DNA from: Arthrobacter luteolus NBRC 107841
GTDB lineage: Bacteria > Actinomycetota > Actinomycetes > Actinomycetales > Micrococcaceae
NCBI RefSeq assembly: GCF_001552075.1
Contig: NZ_BCQM01000003.1
Span: forward strand, 62,001-126,000
DNA length: 64,000 bases
Direction: 5' to 3'
Part shown: piece after piece, positions 5,960 through 23,685 of the stretch
Position numbering within the stretch: the stretch's first letter is position 1
Layout: every line of letters begins with the position of its first letter
Notes under the pieces: model-generated
Databases searched by the model: none
Told to the model about the DNA's origin: nothing
The model's input: the letters and a program-made list of their open reading frames with translations, nothing else
Program-made: the position numbers and the translations under genes

Positions 5960-6011
5960 GGTCCAGGCACCCTGTTGGCGGAGGGATGTAGCACTCTCGG
6001 GAAAACTCGTG

Positions 6012-6017
6012 TATAGT
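6012..6017 (+). promoter_or_regulatory. Probable -10 box of cold-shock gene 1
   Basis: TATAGT, with a weak TAGCAC 17 bases upstream (5989-5994). Transcription starting a few bases downstream would give a leader of about 140 bases whose first part is nearly identical to that of cold-shock gene 2. Confidence 0.55.
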
Positions 6018-6023
6018 CATTTT

Positions 6024-6166
6024 CAGTTGTTGTGTTGCGCGTTTTGTATTTCAAGCGGCGAAACCCATACGGGCTAGCCGCTTTTTCTGTAGAAGCGGTA
6101 AAAACGGACACCGCGACTGAAACCCCCGAAAGTCGGAGCGGTTTCGAGCAGAAAGAAGTATTAAAA
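6024..6166 (+). promoter_or_regulatory. Conserved structured leader of cold-shock gene 1
   Basis: After the segment TTGTTGTGTTG comes a hairpin with arms AAGCGGC (6053-6059) and GCCGCTT (6077-6083), an inner CCC/GGG pairing and a T-run, which has the form of an intrinsic terminator inside the leader. A second small hairpin CCGA/TCGG (6126-6136) lies before the purine-rich ribosome site. The same elements occur in the leader at 8335-8481, 2.3 kb away. The probable role is cold-dependent control of elongation or translation; this is inference. Confidence 0.7.
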
Positions 6167-6370
6167 ATGGCTACAGGTACCGTGAAGTGGTTCAACTCCG
6201 AAAAGGGCTTCGGCTTCATTGAGCCGGACGACGGCAGCGCCGACGTCTTCGCTCACTACTCCGCTATCAACTCCAGCGGCTACAAGTCCCTCGAAGAGAA
6301 CCAGAAGGTCTCCTTCGACACCGAGCAGGGCCCCAAGGGTCCGCAGGCCACGAACATCCAGGGCCTCTAA
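6167..6370 (+). CDS. cspA: Cold-shock protein (CspA family), copy 1
   Basis: 67-residue single cold-shock domain that binds single-stranded RNA and DNA and melts RNA structure. RNP1 (KGFGFI) and RNP2-like (DVFAHY) motifs are both intact. The ATG was chosen because the family always starts with [10 protein letters not shown]; the purine-rich AGAAAGAAG before it is the ribosome site. It differs from copy 2 (8482-8685) by only a few residues, and the leader is conserved too, so the two are a segmental duplication. Confidence 0.96.
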
Positions 6371-6411
6371 TTCCAGAAGCCTAGACACCGCCGTAAAGGC
6401 AGGTATCTAAA

Positions 6412-6447
6412 AAGAAGAGCAGGACGGTTGCCCGTCCTGCTCTTCTT
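6412..6447. terminator. Bidirectional terminator, cspA copy 1 / glsA
   Basis: A perfect 16-bp stem (arms 6412-6427 and 6432-6447) with the loop TTGC, followed by TTGTTT on the plus side. It lies between convergent cspA and glsA and can serve both. Confidence 0.85.
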
Positions 6448-6456
6448 GTTTAACCG

Positions 6457-8271
6457 CTAGTCCTGCACCCGCACTGCCGTTTCACGCAGGTACTGCTCCA
6501 CCCGTGTGTAGGCGTCCTGGGTCAGGGCCCGCCAGAACTGCATGGCCAACCTCGGTTCGTCCGCCTCCATCCGGGCGATCTCCTCGGCCGGGAGCCGCCA
6601 TACCTGGACCTCGCCGTCGGCCTTGACCGTGGTTTCCTGGCGCTTGTCGTCGCCGAGCGCCATTTCGCCGAAGGTCATGCCGGCGCCCAGCCGGTTCAGC
6701 TTCACCCGGTGCCCGTCAGGCCCGGGCATCAGAGTCTGCACATACCCGGAGGAAATAAAGTACACGCCGCTGAACCGTTGTCCGATGCGCCGGATCACAT
6801 CACCGTCGGCGTAGGAGAGTTCCTCCATCCGTCCGGCCAGATCCCCGGCGGCCTCCTGCCCCAGCGGGGCCAGGGCAGGGGAGTCCGCGGGGAGGATCCG
6901 CTCCGGCTGGACCAGATCCGCGCCGTAGCGCCCCAGCAGCTCGTCTTCGCACCATTCCACTGCAGCCGAGCGGGTGGTAAACGCGGGCACGGGGTGGCCG
7001 TGCTGTGTCAGATCGGCGGAGACGGTGCCGGCGGTATCCACCAGGGCCAGCTGCCGGCCGGAGTCCTTCAGCATCTGCGCCGCCTCACCGAACATCCGAA
7101 GGGCTACGCCGGAGACTTCGTCCACGCTCCGCAGGTCCAGGACCACCAGTTCGACGTCGTCATGAAGCGAGGAGAGCTCGCGGACCATCGCCTCGGCCCC
7201 GGCAAAAAGCAGATCCCCATTTAGTTCGAGGACGTGCGCGCGGTGCGCGTTGGCGCGGAGCACGGCGGCGGCTTCCTCGCTTCGGCGGATGCCGGACGGC
7301 GTGGTTCCGATGTCATAGGCAGCCCGGAGCGCTGACCGTCCGGTCCGTCCGGCCCGGACAAAGTGCAGTTCCAGGTCGTGGGACAGCCGCTGGCTGACCG
7401 CGACCCCGCGGACGCTGCTCCCATGGGCATCCAGCGGCGGAGAATAAACAGCCAGCCCGATCTGGCCGGGCAGCACTGCGATCGTTCCGCCGCCCACACC
7501 GGACTTAGCGGGCATCCCGACGCTGCTCATCCACGCGCCGGCATCGTCGTACATGCCGCAGGTCGCCATAACCGAGAGCACACGTTCCACCGAAGCGATG
7601 TCCAGCACCTGCTCATTGCTCAGGGGATTGCGGCCGCTGTTGGCCAGCGTTGCAGCCATCATCGCCAGGTCGAGGGCAGTCACCATAACGGAGCACTGCC
7701 GGAAGTAGTCCTCGATCACCGGCGTCGGGTCGGATTCGATGATGCCGAAGCTGCGCAGCAGGTAGGCCAGGGCGTGGTTGCGGTGTCCGTGTTTCAACTC
7801 GGACTGGTAGATGCGTTCGCTGACGGATAGCTGGCGGCCCGCGAACGCCGAATAGGTATTCAGGATCCGCTTGAAACGGGAGTTGCCGCCGGAACCGCGC
7901 ACCAGGGAAGTGGCCGTCAGCGCACCCGCATTGATCATCGCGTTGGCTGGCCGTCCCGTCCCTTCGGCGAGGGAGATTTCGTTGAAGGAATCTCCGGAGG
8001 GCTCGACGTCGACTTTGGCATCGACGTCATCCATCCCGCGGTCGGCCAGCGCCAGCCCGTAAGTGAACGGCTTGGAGATCGACTGGATGCTGAATTCCTC
8101 GCGGGTGTCACCCACCTCGTATACGTAGCCGTCGGCGGTGGCGAGGACGATTCCGAAACGGTCCGGATCAACGTTCGCCATGGCCGGAATGGAGCTGTAG
8201 GGTTTTCCGTCCTTAAGGTCGGAAATCTCGGCGTGGATGCGCTGCAGGTAGTGCTCGATCGGGGAGTCCAT
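6457..8271 (-). CDS. glsA: Glutaminase A with STAS and cyclic-nucleotide-binding domains
   Basis: 604 residues, twice the length of a simple glutaminase. Residues 1-305 form the glutaminase domain, which converts L-glutamine to glutamate and ammonia. The nucleophile motif is S64-x-x-K67 in QSISKPF, and the EGTGRPANAMINAG segment follows. About residues 340-430 resemble a STAS (anti-sigma-antagonist) domain with LVVLDLRSVDEVSG, and about residues 475-590 resemble a cAMP/CRP-type sensor domain (GVYFISSGYVQTL, GEMALGDDKR). This three-domain form is known in actinobacteria and suggests control by a second messenger. TAGGCT six bases before the ATG fits a leaderless transcript. It lies between the two cold-shock copies on the opposite strand. 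Confidence 0.93.
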   Translation of the reverse strand: MDSPIEHYLQRIHAEISDLKDGKPYSSIPAMANVDPDRFGIVLATADGYVYEVGDTREEFSIQSISKPFTYGLALADRGMDDVDAKVDVEPSGDSFNEISLAEGTGRPANAMINAGALTATSLVRGSGGNSRFKRILNTYSAFAGRQLSVSERIYQSELKHGHRNHALAYLLRSFGIIESDPTPVIEDYFRQCSVMVTALDLAMMAATLANSGRNPLSNEQVLDIASVERVLSVMATCGMYDDAGAWMSSVGMPAKSGVGGGTIAVLPGQIGLAVYSPPLDAHGSSVRGVAVSQRLSHDLELHFVRAGRTGRSALRAAYDIGTTPSGIRRSEEAAAVLRANAHRAHVLELNGDLLFAGAEAMVRELSSLHDDVELVVLDLRSVDEVSGVALRMFGEAAQMLKDSGRQLALVDTAGTVSADLTQHGHPVPAFTTRSAAVEWCEDELLGRYGADLVQPERILPADSPALAPLGQEAAGDLAGRMEELSYADGDVIRRIGQRFSGVYFISSGYVQTLMPGPDGHRVKLNRLGAGMTFGEMALGDDKRQETTVKADGEVQVWRLPAEEIARMEADEPRLAMQFWRALTQDAYTRVEQYLRETAVRVQD

Positions 8272-8300
8272 CTTTCCAGCCTAGGGGAGTCAAAAGACCC

Positions 8301-8329
8301 GTGACGCTGCCCTGGCCGCTGTGTATACT
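8301..8329 (+). promoter_or_regulatory. Promoter of cold-shock gene 2
   Basis: GTGACG (8301-8306), 17 bases, TATACT (8324-8329). It lies 30 bases from the divergent glsA start. Confidence 0.65.
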
Positions 8330-8334
8330 AGCCG

Positions 8335-8481
8335 CAGTTGTTGTGTTGAGCATTTTGTATCCAAGCGGCCGAAACCCAGATCCAGGGCAAAGCCGCTTTT
8401 TTTGTAGAACGCCGTAGACGGCACAGCAACTGGAAGCTCCCCGACGGTCGGGGATGTTTCGCCTCAGAAGGATGATTAAAA
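8335..8481 (+). promoter_or_regulatory. Conserved structured leader of cold-shock gene 2
   Basis: Same order of elements as in the first leader: TTGTTGTGTTG, hairpin AAGCGGC (8363-8369) / GCCGCTT (8392-8398) ending in a T-run, then a hairpin CCCCGA (8439-8444) / TCGGGG (8448-8453), GTTTCG, and the ribosome site AGAAGGATG before ATTAAAAATG. The loops differ between the copies while the stem arms are kept. Confidence 0.72.
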
Positions 8482-8685
8482 ATGGCAACTGGCACCGTGA
8501 AATGGTTCAACTCTGAAAAGGGCTTCGGCTTCATCGAGCCCGACGACGGCAGCGCCGATGTTTTCGCCCACTACTCCGCCATCAATGCGAGCGGCTACCG
8601 CTCCCTCGAAGAGAACCAGAAGGTTAGCTTCGATACCGAACAGGGACCCAAGGGCCCCCAGGCGGTAAACATCCAGGCTGTCTAA
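8482..8685 (+). CDS. cspA: Cold-shock protein (CspA family), copy 2
   Basis: 67-residue cold-shock domain with intact KGFGFI and DVFAHY RNA-binding motifs. It differs from copy 1 at only about five positions, including the ends (QGL in copy 1, QAV here). Its own promoter, leader and terminator show that it is an independent transcription unit. Keeping two near-identical copies suggests gene dosage or different temperature set points of the leaders. Confidence 0.96.
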
Positions 8686-8722: not shown

Positions 8723-8754
8723 CAGATGCAGGACGGATTTCCGTCCTGCATCTG
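8723..8754 (+). terminator. Terminator of cspA copy 2
   Basis: Stem arms CAGATGCAGGACGGA (8723-8737) and its complement (8740-8754), followed by TTGTTTAAAC. The stem core GCAGGACGG also occurs in the terminator of copy 1. Confidence 0.85.
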
Positions 8755-8859
8755 TTGTTTAAACAGCTCTGCCGAACCTGCGGCCGTTTCGCCGGCGGTG
8801 TTTCCTGGGCGGGACGGGATACCTTCCAAAGCCCTCCAGCCGCGCGTACGTTGGCATCC

Positions 8860-9382: not shown

Positions 9383-9497
9383 TCCAACAGCTTCAAGAAC
9401 TGCGGCCGCCAAGCTCCGACTTGGCCGCATACCAACCCCACGCTCGTTGGGTGGTTCGGATGAAGAAGCGGCCTGCACTCGCCCCAAGGGGCAACCG

Positions 9498-9671
9498 GTG
9501 CCAGGCAAGAGCACGCCGAAAGGACCGGCGCACGGCGCCGCACCCATGGACACATTTGTTCCCGCACGACCCTCCCTTCACGCAGTCAGCCTCCAGGAGT
9601 ATGAAGCCGTGGTCAGCGGGCGGGAAGCCTTTATCAGCTTCCTGCTCGGCGACCCGGCTGCCGCAGTATGA
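9498..9671 (+). CDS. Small protein upstream of PIN gene, candidate antitoxin
   Basis: 57 codons from a GTG that has the ribosome site AAGGGG (9486-9491) at good spacing. The frame is open further up but without a better start. The N-terminal third is basic and Pro/Gly-rich; the second half (SLQEYEAVVSGREAFISFL) looks helical. Its stop overlaps the start of the PIN gene (ATGA), the arrangement of VapBC-type pairs, yet I recognise no Phd, AbrB or ribbon-helix-helix fold. Calling it an antitoxin rests only on position. Confidence 0.45.
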   Translation: MPGKSTPKGPAHGAAPMDTFVPARPSLHAVSLQEYEAVVSGREAFISFLLGDPAAAV

Positions 9672-21978: not shown

Positions 21979-23685
21979 CTAGAAGAGGGTGTAGCGCTGG
22001 GTCAGCGGGAGCTCGGAAACCGGTGCCGGTTCAATGACCTGGCCGTCGATGCTGACCAGGAATGTTTCCGGATTCACCTGGATGTCCGGCAGTGCAGTGT
22101 TATTCGGCAGGGACGCTTTGGTGACGTTGCGGGTGGAGGTGATTGCGGTCAGGGGACGGGTGAGTCCCAGCTTCTCCGCCAGGCCGTCCTCCAGTGCCGC
22201 CGGGGCAACGAACGACGTCGAGAGGTGTGGTGCCGAGGAAGCGCGGCCGGCGAGGGCCTCGCGCATCCAGACCGGCTGCGGAGTGGGCAGCGAAGCGTTC
22301 GGGTCGCCCATCTGCCCGGCCACGATTGCCCCGCCCTTGATCACGATTGCGGGACGGATGCCGAAGAACGCCGGATTCCACAGCACCAGGTCCGCCATTT
22401 TGCCGACCTCGATGGACCCGACCTCGCCGTCAATGCCGTGGGCCACAGCGGGACAGATCGTGTACTTGGCGATGTAGCGCCGGACCCGTTCGTTGTCCGC
22501 GGGCAGGGAGGATTCCGTGGTGCCCATGTAATCCTTCATCACGTGGGCCACCTGCCAGGTGCGGGTGATGGTTTCGCCGATCCGGCCCATGGCCTGGGCA
22601 TCCGAAGAAGTGATGGACATGGCGCCGAGGTCCTGGAGGACGTCCTCGGCCATCATGGTGTTGGCCCGGATCCGGGATTCGGCGAAGGCCAGGTCCTCCG
22701 GGATCCGCGGGTTGAGGTGATGGCAGACCATCAGCATGTCCAGGTGCTCGGCCACCGTGTTCACGGTGAAGGGCAGGGTGGGATTGGTCGACGCCGGCAG
22801 TACGTTGGCGGCCGCCGCCACGGTAATGATGTCCGGGGCATGGCCGCCGCCGGCGCCTTCGGCGTGGAACACATGGATACCGCGGCCCTTGATGGCGGCC
22901 AGGGTGTCCTGGACGTAGCCGGCCTCGTTCAGCGAGTCGGCGTGCAGGGCCACCTGGACACCCCAGCTCTCCGCCGCCGTGAGTGCGGCGTCGATGGCGG
23001 CGGGGGTGGAGCCCCAGTCCTCGTGCACCTTGTAGCCGGCGGCGCCGGCAAGGGCCTGCTCTTCGAGGGCCGCCTGGCTGACAGTGTTGCCCTTGCCGTA
23101 GAGCAGGAAGTTCATCGGCAGCGTATCGAGGGCCCGGTGCATGACCTGCAGGTTCCAGGCTCCCGGGGTTGCGGTGGTGGCCTTGGATCCCTCGGCCGGC
23201 CCGGTGCCGCCGCCTCCCACCGTGGTGATCCCGGAGGCCAGGGCTTCGCGCAGGGCGTCAGTGCCGAGCAGGTGCACGTGCGTGTCGATTCCTCCGGCGG
23301 TGAGGATCCTGCCCTCCCCGGCGACCACCTCGGTTCCCGGTCCGATCACCAGTGCCGGGTCGATTCCGTCCATGATGTCCGGGTTGCCGGACTTGCCGAT
23401 TCCGGCGATCCGGCCGTTTTTCACCCCGACGTCGGCGCGGACGATTCCCCAATGGTCCACGATCACCACGTTCGTGATGATCAGGTCCGGTGCGCCCTCG
23501 GCTGAGGTCCGGGTGGACTGGGCCATGGACTCACGGATGTTCTTCCCGCCGCCGAAAACCGATTCGTCCCCTCCGAAGGTGTAGTCCTTTTCCGGGGAAA
23601 TCCAGAGGTCCGTGTCCGCGAGCCGGATCTGGTCCCCGACGGTGGGTCCGTACAGCTGGGCGTAGTCGTGCCGGCTGACCTGCAT
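21979..23685 (-). CDS. ureC: Urease alpha subunit
   Basis: 568 residues, catalytic subunit hydrolysing urea to ammonia and carbamate. All active-site residues are in place: H136 and H138 ([10 protein letters not shown]), carbamylated K219 with H221 (GYKVHEDWG), H248 (ALHADSL), H274 and H282 in the [12 protein letters not shown] segment, flap C321-H322-H323, and D362 (SSDAQAMGR). The numbering is two higher than in Klebsiella UreC, so there are no gaps in the core. Stop and start spacings to ureB (2 bases) and ureF (11 bases) show a tight operon. Confidence 0.98.

Follow-up and report, generated by a model that had tools for sequence, protein, structure and literature searches.

Structured leaders with a terminator-like hairpin precede cold-shock genes of Arthrobacter and relatives: a candidate attenuator

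The two cold-shock protein (CSP) genes in a 64,000-nucleotide (nt) stretch of the Arthrobacter luteolus NBRC 107841 genome (genome G000, contig C3, 62001–126000; hereafter the window) are each preceded by a structured leader containing a terminator-like hairpin, P3. A csp leader RNA with the anatomy of an attenuator is real and apparently unregistered, and it is apparently a variant of known leader-RNA control. We favour the explanation that it is a regulated attenuator, and give this explanation as a whole a probability of about 0.5. Its elements, their pairing and their conservation are established at the level of sequence. Premature termination at P3 is likely on the same grounds, because the terminator is enriched in csp leaders and its stem usually ends about 60 nt past a conserved element at the RNA 5' end. 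The transcript start, termination at P3 in vivo and CSP or cold as the signal are presumed.

Five genes of this actinobacterial genome encode a cold-shock domain (CSD) at E ≤ 0.001, and two of them lie in the window; their products are identical at 62 of 67 residues. Counted from the presumed start, which is the sixth or seventh base downstream of the −10 element, the leaders are 143 nt (copy 1, from 6024) and 147 nt (copy 2, from 8335) long. From 5' to 3' each consists of the P1 5' strand CAGUUGUUGUGUU, the P2 5' strand UUUUGUA, P3 (AAGCGGC...GCCGCUU) with its U-run, the P2 3' strand UGUAGAA, the P1 3' strand (GACACCGCGACUG or GGCACAGCAACUG), hairpin P4, the ribosome site and AUG. The features are as follows.

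6012–6017, + strand: putative −10 element TATAGT, copy 1 (sequence; TANNNT position kept among relatives)
6024–6036, + strand: 5' element and P1 5' strand CAGTTGTTGTGTT, copy 1 (where transcription presumably starts; 0–1 substitutions per column in 89 leaders)
6042–6048, + strand: P2 5' strand TTTTGTA, copy 1 (sequence; P2 pairing above null)
6053–6059, + strand: P3 5' arm AAGCGGC, copy 1 (sequence; P3 covariation)
6077–6086, + strand: P3 3' arm GCCGCTT (6077–6083) and T-run TTTTT (6082–6086), terminator-like, copy 1
6088–6094, + strand: P2 3' strand TGTAGAA, copy 1 (sequence; P2 pairing against null)
6107–6119, + strand: P1 3' strand GACACCGCGACTG, copy 1 (pairing, covariation test)
about 6119–6145, + strand: P4 hairpin preceding the ribosome site, copy 1 (folding; covariation of inner P4)
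6150–6158, + strand: ribosome-binding region AGAAAGAAG, copy 1 (sequence)
6167–6370, + strand: csp gene copy 1, 67 amino acids, CSD (Pfam PF00313, 8.3e-32)
8324–8329, + strand: putative −10 element TATACT, copy 2 (sequence)
8335–8347, + strand: 5' element and P1 5' strand CAGTTGTTGTGTT, copy 2 (folding, pairing)
8363–8369, + strand: P3 5' arm AAGCGGC, copy 2 (pairing)
8392–8403, + strand: P3 3' arm GCCGCTT (8392–8398) and T-run TTTTTTT (8397–8403), copy 2 (pairing, terminator scan)
8420–8432, + strand: P1 3' strand GGCACAGCAACTG, copy 2 (folding, pairing)
about 8433–8461, + strand: P4 hairpin, copy 2 (folding, pairing)
8466–8472, + strand: Shine-Dalgarno (SD) sequence AGAAGGA, copy 2 (sequence)
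8482–8685, + strand: csp gene copy 2, 67 amino acids, CSD (Pfam PF00313, 2e-31)

A first-pass annotation of this DNA had described a conserved 5' sequence shared by the two leaders, an identical P3 stem followed by a T-run, and another hairpin just ahead of the ribosome site. Each of these was recovered: TTGTTGTGTTG is present at 6027–6037 and 8338–8348, the P3 arms and T-runs were located in both copies, and P4 precedes both ribosome sites, with loops and spacers that differ as claimed. The long-range helix P1, in which the RNA 5' end would pair with 6107–6119 or 8420–8432, was absent from that annotation. P1, P2 and P3 together contain about 27–29 pairs, interrupted by loops. Relative to dinucleotide shuffles, the leader plus start codon gave z-scores of −2.66 for copy 1 (matched by 6 of 200 shuffles) and −3.94 for copy 2 (0 of 200); the first 82–85 nt alone were not unusual by the same comparison (z −1.49, 13 of 200, and z −0.68, 47 of 200). 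The predicted whole-leader fold of copy 2 was P1-P2-P3-P4. In that of copy 1, P1 was not formed and the P2 5' strand paired with the ribosome site instead.

P3 and its U-run scored as terminator-like in both copies, with free energies (ΔG) of −14.9 and −13.2 kcal/mol and U-tail scores of 3.64 and 4.5 for copies 1 and 2, respectively. The scan used a hairpin ΔG of at most −9 kcal/mol and a U-tail threshold of 3.0, a threshold that under-calls, as it rejects both strong hairpins at the ends of the csp genes (tails 2.24 and 2.23). Among 48 regions upstream of other long open reading frames in the window, only one passed. Among Arthrobacter csp upstream regions 34 of 36 passed, compared to 4.9 expected from shuffles; the two misses, loci L001 and L004, belong to csp genes of the same genome that have other leader types. 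In other genera of the family 27 of 63 passed (5.3 expected), a count biased upward since the family loci were found with a model containing this hairpin. Genus and family handles (g and f) follow the grouping used here, in which some Arthrobacter-titled strains sit in g22 and g46. The signal was present in g39 (8/8, with stems that differ in sequence), g43 (8/9), g40 (2/2), g33 (1/1), g19 (1/2) and g22 (4/9).

The class was sampled twice. Loci entered the first sample on CSD score or family, irrespective of leader, and 17 of 45 regions passed (4.9 expected), including f31 4/4, f29 and f38 2/2, f45 1/6 and f37 3/8 (2.3 expected). The second comprised 40 loci, 36 of them usable, taken roughly in CSD-score rank order with some skipped; one, L291, came from the window's own order, and when this sample was scanned 6 of 51 loci lacked a csp upstream region that could be used. 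On the sense strand 11 of 36 passed, compared to 0 of 36 antisense, 3.15 expected and 2 of 360 random pieces; the 11 hairpins represent 8 distinct ones (three identical, two identical). Upstream regions of other genes at the order- and class-level loci passed in 3 of 71 cases (csp versus other, Fisher p 3e-4, relatedness not modelled). The proposal in the first-pass annotation that a terminator-shaped hairpin sits inside the leader is supported by these counts, in the genus and in the strand comparison of the class.

The position of the hairpin was usually kept too. Its stem ended 57–63 nt after a recognised 5' element in Arthrobacter and g39, at 60 nt in two f38 leaders, and at 62, 60, 59, 51 and 48 nt in single leaders of f39, f42, f19, f52 and f2, respectively. 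The outliers were two of three f37 leaders (9 and 77 nt) and one g24 leader (−2 nt), whose hairpins are probably unrelated. The mean ΔG of the stretch from +12 to +76 was −14.9 in Arthrobacter, −15.1 in the rest of the family, −17.6 in the order and −18.5 in the class, and that of shuffles was −9.5, −10.5, −13.6 and −12.1 for the same groups; at most 3 of 30 shuffles did better in 29/35, 41/62, 10/19 and 20/28 leaders. Median stem ends of the hairpins in this stretch were 59.5–62 nt across groups. A stable hairpin at +12 to +76 is general across groups; this does not hold for strong U-runs (at least 6 of 8), which occur in 33/35, 17/62, 1/19 and 5/28 leaders, in the same order.

The element at the extreme 5' end consists mostly of G and U. 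Of the csp upstream regions, 34 of 36 in Arthrobacter and 54 of 63 in the remaining genera of the family have TANNNT 4–10 nt upstream of a GTTG[CT][AT]GT-like element. At the order level 11 of 27 csp genes had this combination (0.13 expected), in a sample partly chosen by a second model, and at the class level 16 of 45 (0.42 expected), of which 8 are near-identical relatives in f37 with Streptomyces-sized genomes. Judged by sequence, conservation of the 5' element reaches further than that of the P1 helix: the element recurs in the class, and P1 complementarity is rarely detectable outside Arthrobacter.

Allowing up to three mismatches, a motif search detected the leader in 17 of the 39 genomes of relatives, every one of the window's genus. 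The exact motif occurred in 21 named stretches, with titles giving Arthrobacter (15), Paenarthrobacter (3), Specibacter (1), an uncultured Micrococcaceae (1) and a bin labelled Acidobacteria (1). This last, a metagenome bin (L174, JABBNV010000015.1), carries the leader, and its label is probably wrong. A covariance model built on 18 leaders matched at E ≤ 1 in 118 of 295 family genomes, representing 14 of 32 genera, and a csp gene adjoined the match at 57 of 60 loci taken from these matches (all except L088, L109 and L113). One leader, L121 (G202:C1), is a short version (86-nt model match) that lacks P3 and keeps P4, the csp gene and a variant 5' element, which the strict motif missed. Four leaders were dropped by start pattern when leaders were gathered.

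Among 77 model-aligned leaders (75 distinct), double changes occurred in 30 of 38 pairs compared to 15.6 (standard deviation 2.1) in shuffles, and the covariation score was 0.287 (shuffled 0.170, slid 0.046–0.083); this alignment is biased toward the structure. A helix test against a tree null was carried out on 89 leaders in a sequence-only alignment, with the substitutions of each column kept but relocated on the tree in 200 runs; this test of the named helices was designed after the all-pairs result given below had been seen. P3 was paired in 87.6% of cases compared to 68.7% in the null, with 7 double changes compared to 1.7, and none of the 200 runs reached either value. The corresponding values were 96.6% and 85.3%, with 5 and 0.4 double changes (0/200), for the inner stem of P4; 76.9% and 59.0% (0/200), with 4 and 1.0 double changes (2/200), for P2; and 88.8% and 82.4%, with 2 and 0.2 double changes (3/200 each), for P1. 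The 5' strand of P1 is near-frozen, with 0–1 inferred substitutions in each of the ten paired columns that follow the first, and the 3' strand varies, mostly staying compatible through G-U or A-U pairs. P1 complementarity reached p < 0.05 in 32 of 40 individual leaders labelled Arthrobacter, up to six of which come from sister genera (L053, L056, L057, L058, L060 and L063, also included in the Arthrobacter group for SD accessibility, P3 probability and the antiterminator).

A model that would accommodate these features is as follows. Each csp gene would be transcribed into an mRNA whose structured leader, about 145 nt long, begins with the G/U element. P3 and the U-run, about 60 nt on, would act as an intrinsic terminator, so that a share of transcripts would stop as short leader RNAs roughly 65 nt long. 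In those that continue, P1 would close between the 5' end and the region ahead of P4, burying the 5' element and the RNA 5' end, and the ribosome site would then be presented after P4. The level of csp expression would be set by the amount of read-through, and the signal may be CSP bound to the exposed 5' strand, cold, or both, resulting in autoregulation. That CSP could bind the G/U-rich 5' strand is suggested by what is generally known of CSPs. Control by temperature or by CspA, as proposed in the first-pass annotation, may occur. In an extended form the attenuator would be class-wide with CSP as its ligand: plentiful CSP would hold the nascent 5' end and P3 would terminate, and when cold-structured mRNAs titrate CSP away the free 5' strand would hinder P3 and allow read-through. 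We regard this extended form as quite improbable.

Several results weigh against a regulated attenuator. The terminator is scarce in g46 (2/16), g24 (1/11) and g34 (0/3), and was not called in g20 or g21 (0/1) or in f22 (0/7); in the other families of the order it passed in 3 of 27 cases with 2.25 expected. As many sister-genus leaders lack it, the terminator is not the sole conserved function of the leader. A stricter all-pairs test with a substitution-shuffling null (L001, L004, L119, L121, L122 and L140 omitted) yielded zero pairs at E < 0.05, the best, in P4, having E 2.65. The covariation that had been put forward as a check was seen for P3 and P4, and more weakly for P1, against the tree null, but not for any single pair in the all-pairs test. 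P1 pairing was clear only in Arthrobacter and its close relatives: at p < 0.05 it was detectable in 9 of 55 leaders from the rest of the family, 0 of 16 from the order and 2 of 25 from the class, and P1 as a class-wide feature was rejected, being unsupported outside the family by per-leader complementarity. Nascent folds paired the 5' element with the 5' arm of P3, as a cold-stabilised antiterminator would; shuffled arms paired equally well (mean −8.98 kcal/mol compared to −9.33 shuffled in 77 leaders, p < 0.1 in 4 of 77), and the antitermination suggested in the first-pass annotation was not upheld. Lastly, in the accessible parts of Streptomyces papers on transcript ends and non-coding RNA (including PMC3765725 and PMC8269248), 'cold shock' is absent from the main text. 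This holds for a 2013 non-coding RNA paper (PMC3765725), which was set aside as a description of csp attenuators. As described in the part available, the Term-seq study (PMC8269248) considers an end premature only if it lies at least 70 bp past the start site and could therefore miss a product of 60–65 nt.

In folding of truncated transcripts, the mean probability of P3 was 0.94 at 37°C (68 leaders) and 0.82 at 4°C (0.12 in f38). A predicted weakening of P3 in the cold is the direction needed for a cold-permissive terminator. We do not rely on this shift because P3 probability barely moved in the window leaders (0.95 to 0.98 in one, 0.99 throughout in the other) and the competing fold was no better than composition.

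One alternative is that the leader serves mRNA stability or processing. P1, P2 and P3 would then form one long interrupted 5' hairpin that shields the transcript from decay at its 5' end and is cut by RNase III, the U-run being incidental. A precedent comes from the available text on Staphylococcus aureus cspA, where RNase III processes a long hairpin in the 5' untranslated region (UTR) and so stabilises the mRNA and raises translation (PMC3386247). P1 begins at the presumed transcript start and is part of the minimum-energy fold of copy 2, and leaders with P1 and P3 that lack a U-run would be accounted for. However, the S. aureus helix is an almost perfect 32 bp, and no U-run terminator is described in that part of the paper (PMC3386247), whereas the helix here is broken by loops and contains many G-U pairs. 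Class-level leaders retain terminators without a clear P1, and the enrichment of the U-run after the stem is left unexplained. On balance we consider this explanation unlikely.

Another possibility, which we also rate as rather doubtful, is that P3 is unregulated and stops a fixed fraction of transcripts, with the 5' element kept at the DNA level for initiation or early elongation. The 5' element holds its place just after the −10 element throughout the class, even where P1 is undetectable, and no antiterminator was found, both as a fixed attenuator would have it. The P1 partner strand tracks the 5' strand in Arthrobacter and relatives above the tree null, however, which argues for a role of the RNA there.

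Least probable is a translation switch resembling the E. coli cspA thermosensor, in which the region from the ribosome site to AUG is closed by alternative pairing with the P2 5' strand, with temperature or CSP shifting the balance: 6040–6052 pairs with the SD-AUG region in place of P1 in the minimum-energy fold of copy 1, copy 2 has a matching repeat (8351–8361/8474–8484), and in the part of the study available six S. coelicolor csp genes belong to the set whose translation is induced by heat shock (PMC6009599), but the predicted folds of the two copies differ at all nine temperatures from 0 to 42°C and predicted SD accessibility in 88 leaders changed between 10 and 37°C by 0.02 on average and 0.30 at most. 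An RNA thermometer at the ribosome site was set aside on the same predicted folding, which showed almost no temperature effect. We keep the post-transcriptional explanations open because of the RNase III precedent in S. aureus and the translational induction of csp genes in S. coelicolor.

By itself the leader has no match in Rfam, and no riboswitch family in that database matches the csp leaders. RF01766, the cspA thermoregulator, matched at 57.5 and 36.6 bits, below its gathering score of 78, from 6076 and 8435 onward through the genes, and the copy 1 leader alone (6000–6167) gave no RF01766 match at E ≤ 10. Membership in RF01766 was rejected on these scores; the sub-threshold matches seem to be driven by the coding region. 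The leader resembles the E. coli thermoregulator in being a long structured 5' leader on a csp mRNA and differs from it in its terminator-like hairpin. The cold box, a conserved element at the 5' end of the E. coli cspA mRNA, is comparable to the 5' element described here. Intrinsic-terminator attenuators of the riboswitch or leader-peptide kind likewise place a GC stem and U-run between promoter and gene. Unlike these, the csp leaders match no riboswitch family and have no supported antiterminator. In the accessible accounts of Corynebacterium glutamicum, the 5' UTR of cg0215 cspA, about 180 nt by RNA sequencing, is annotated with RF01766 (PMC3890552, PMC4046766). It too is an actinobacterial csp leader; it was identified by the RF01766 model alone, and neither a terminator nor a 5' element is described in those accounts. 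Literature searches limited to open-licence papers listed no title or abstract opening that describes the present csp leader, which is a weak negative.

Both csp genes in the window end in terminator hairpins, identified by repeat comparison and scored, with tails below threshold, in the terminator scan.

6409–6450, + strand: gene-end terminator hairpin, copy 1
8723–8754, + strand: gene-end terminator hairpin, copy 2

Within 6419–6453 and 8728–8762 these have GCAGGACGG...CCGTCCTGC in common, with 80% identity across 35 bases. The two csp copies are separated by a minus-strand glutaminase-STAS-cNMP fusion gene (8271–6457). The two leaders lie about 2.3–3.5 kb apart in other Arthrobacter genomes, a spacing which suggests that the arrangement of csp genes around the fusion gene may be kept there. 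The third csp gene of the genome (G000:C1:82711–82902; L001, 1200–1500) has a different leader with the hairpin GCTCGCAA...TTGCGAGCGTGAAGCTCC. By eye this hairpin looks like the csp leader of a distant f22 genome (L213), and the two perhaps represent a second actinobacterial csp leader type. A Streptomyces-sized genome, G677 (L242–L250), has 11 csp genes, several of them paralogs with hairpin-U-run leaders whose stem sequences are unrelated; of the 9 usable, 2 passed the scan (L246 and L250; 1.0 expected), and counting L243, L244 and L245 as hairpin-U-run leaders by eye is a judgement with no score. Elsewhere in the window, a SAM-IV riboswitch match lies at 9391–9517 (+ strand, 63.9 bits), and a match to Rfam 5_ureB_sRNA at 23256–23535 (+ strand, 50.5 bits) exceeds the gathering score; in this actinobacterial host the latter may reflect ureB coding homology.

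Control of cold-shock genes in actinobacteria, which include soil bacteria, antibiotic producers and mycobacteria, seems little described, and the csp leader of Corynebacterium has been annotated with an E. coli-type cspA model that the present leader fails to match. If the attenuator with CSP as its ligand were true, it would be a case of an RNA chaperone negatively autoregulating its own gene through intrinsic termination. A leader that combines an element at the 5' end with an early terminator, and has recognisable relatives in genomes up to the size of Streptomyces, would offer a simple, testable handle on csp autoregulation.

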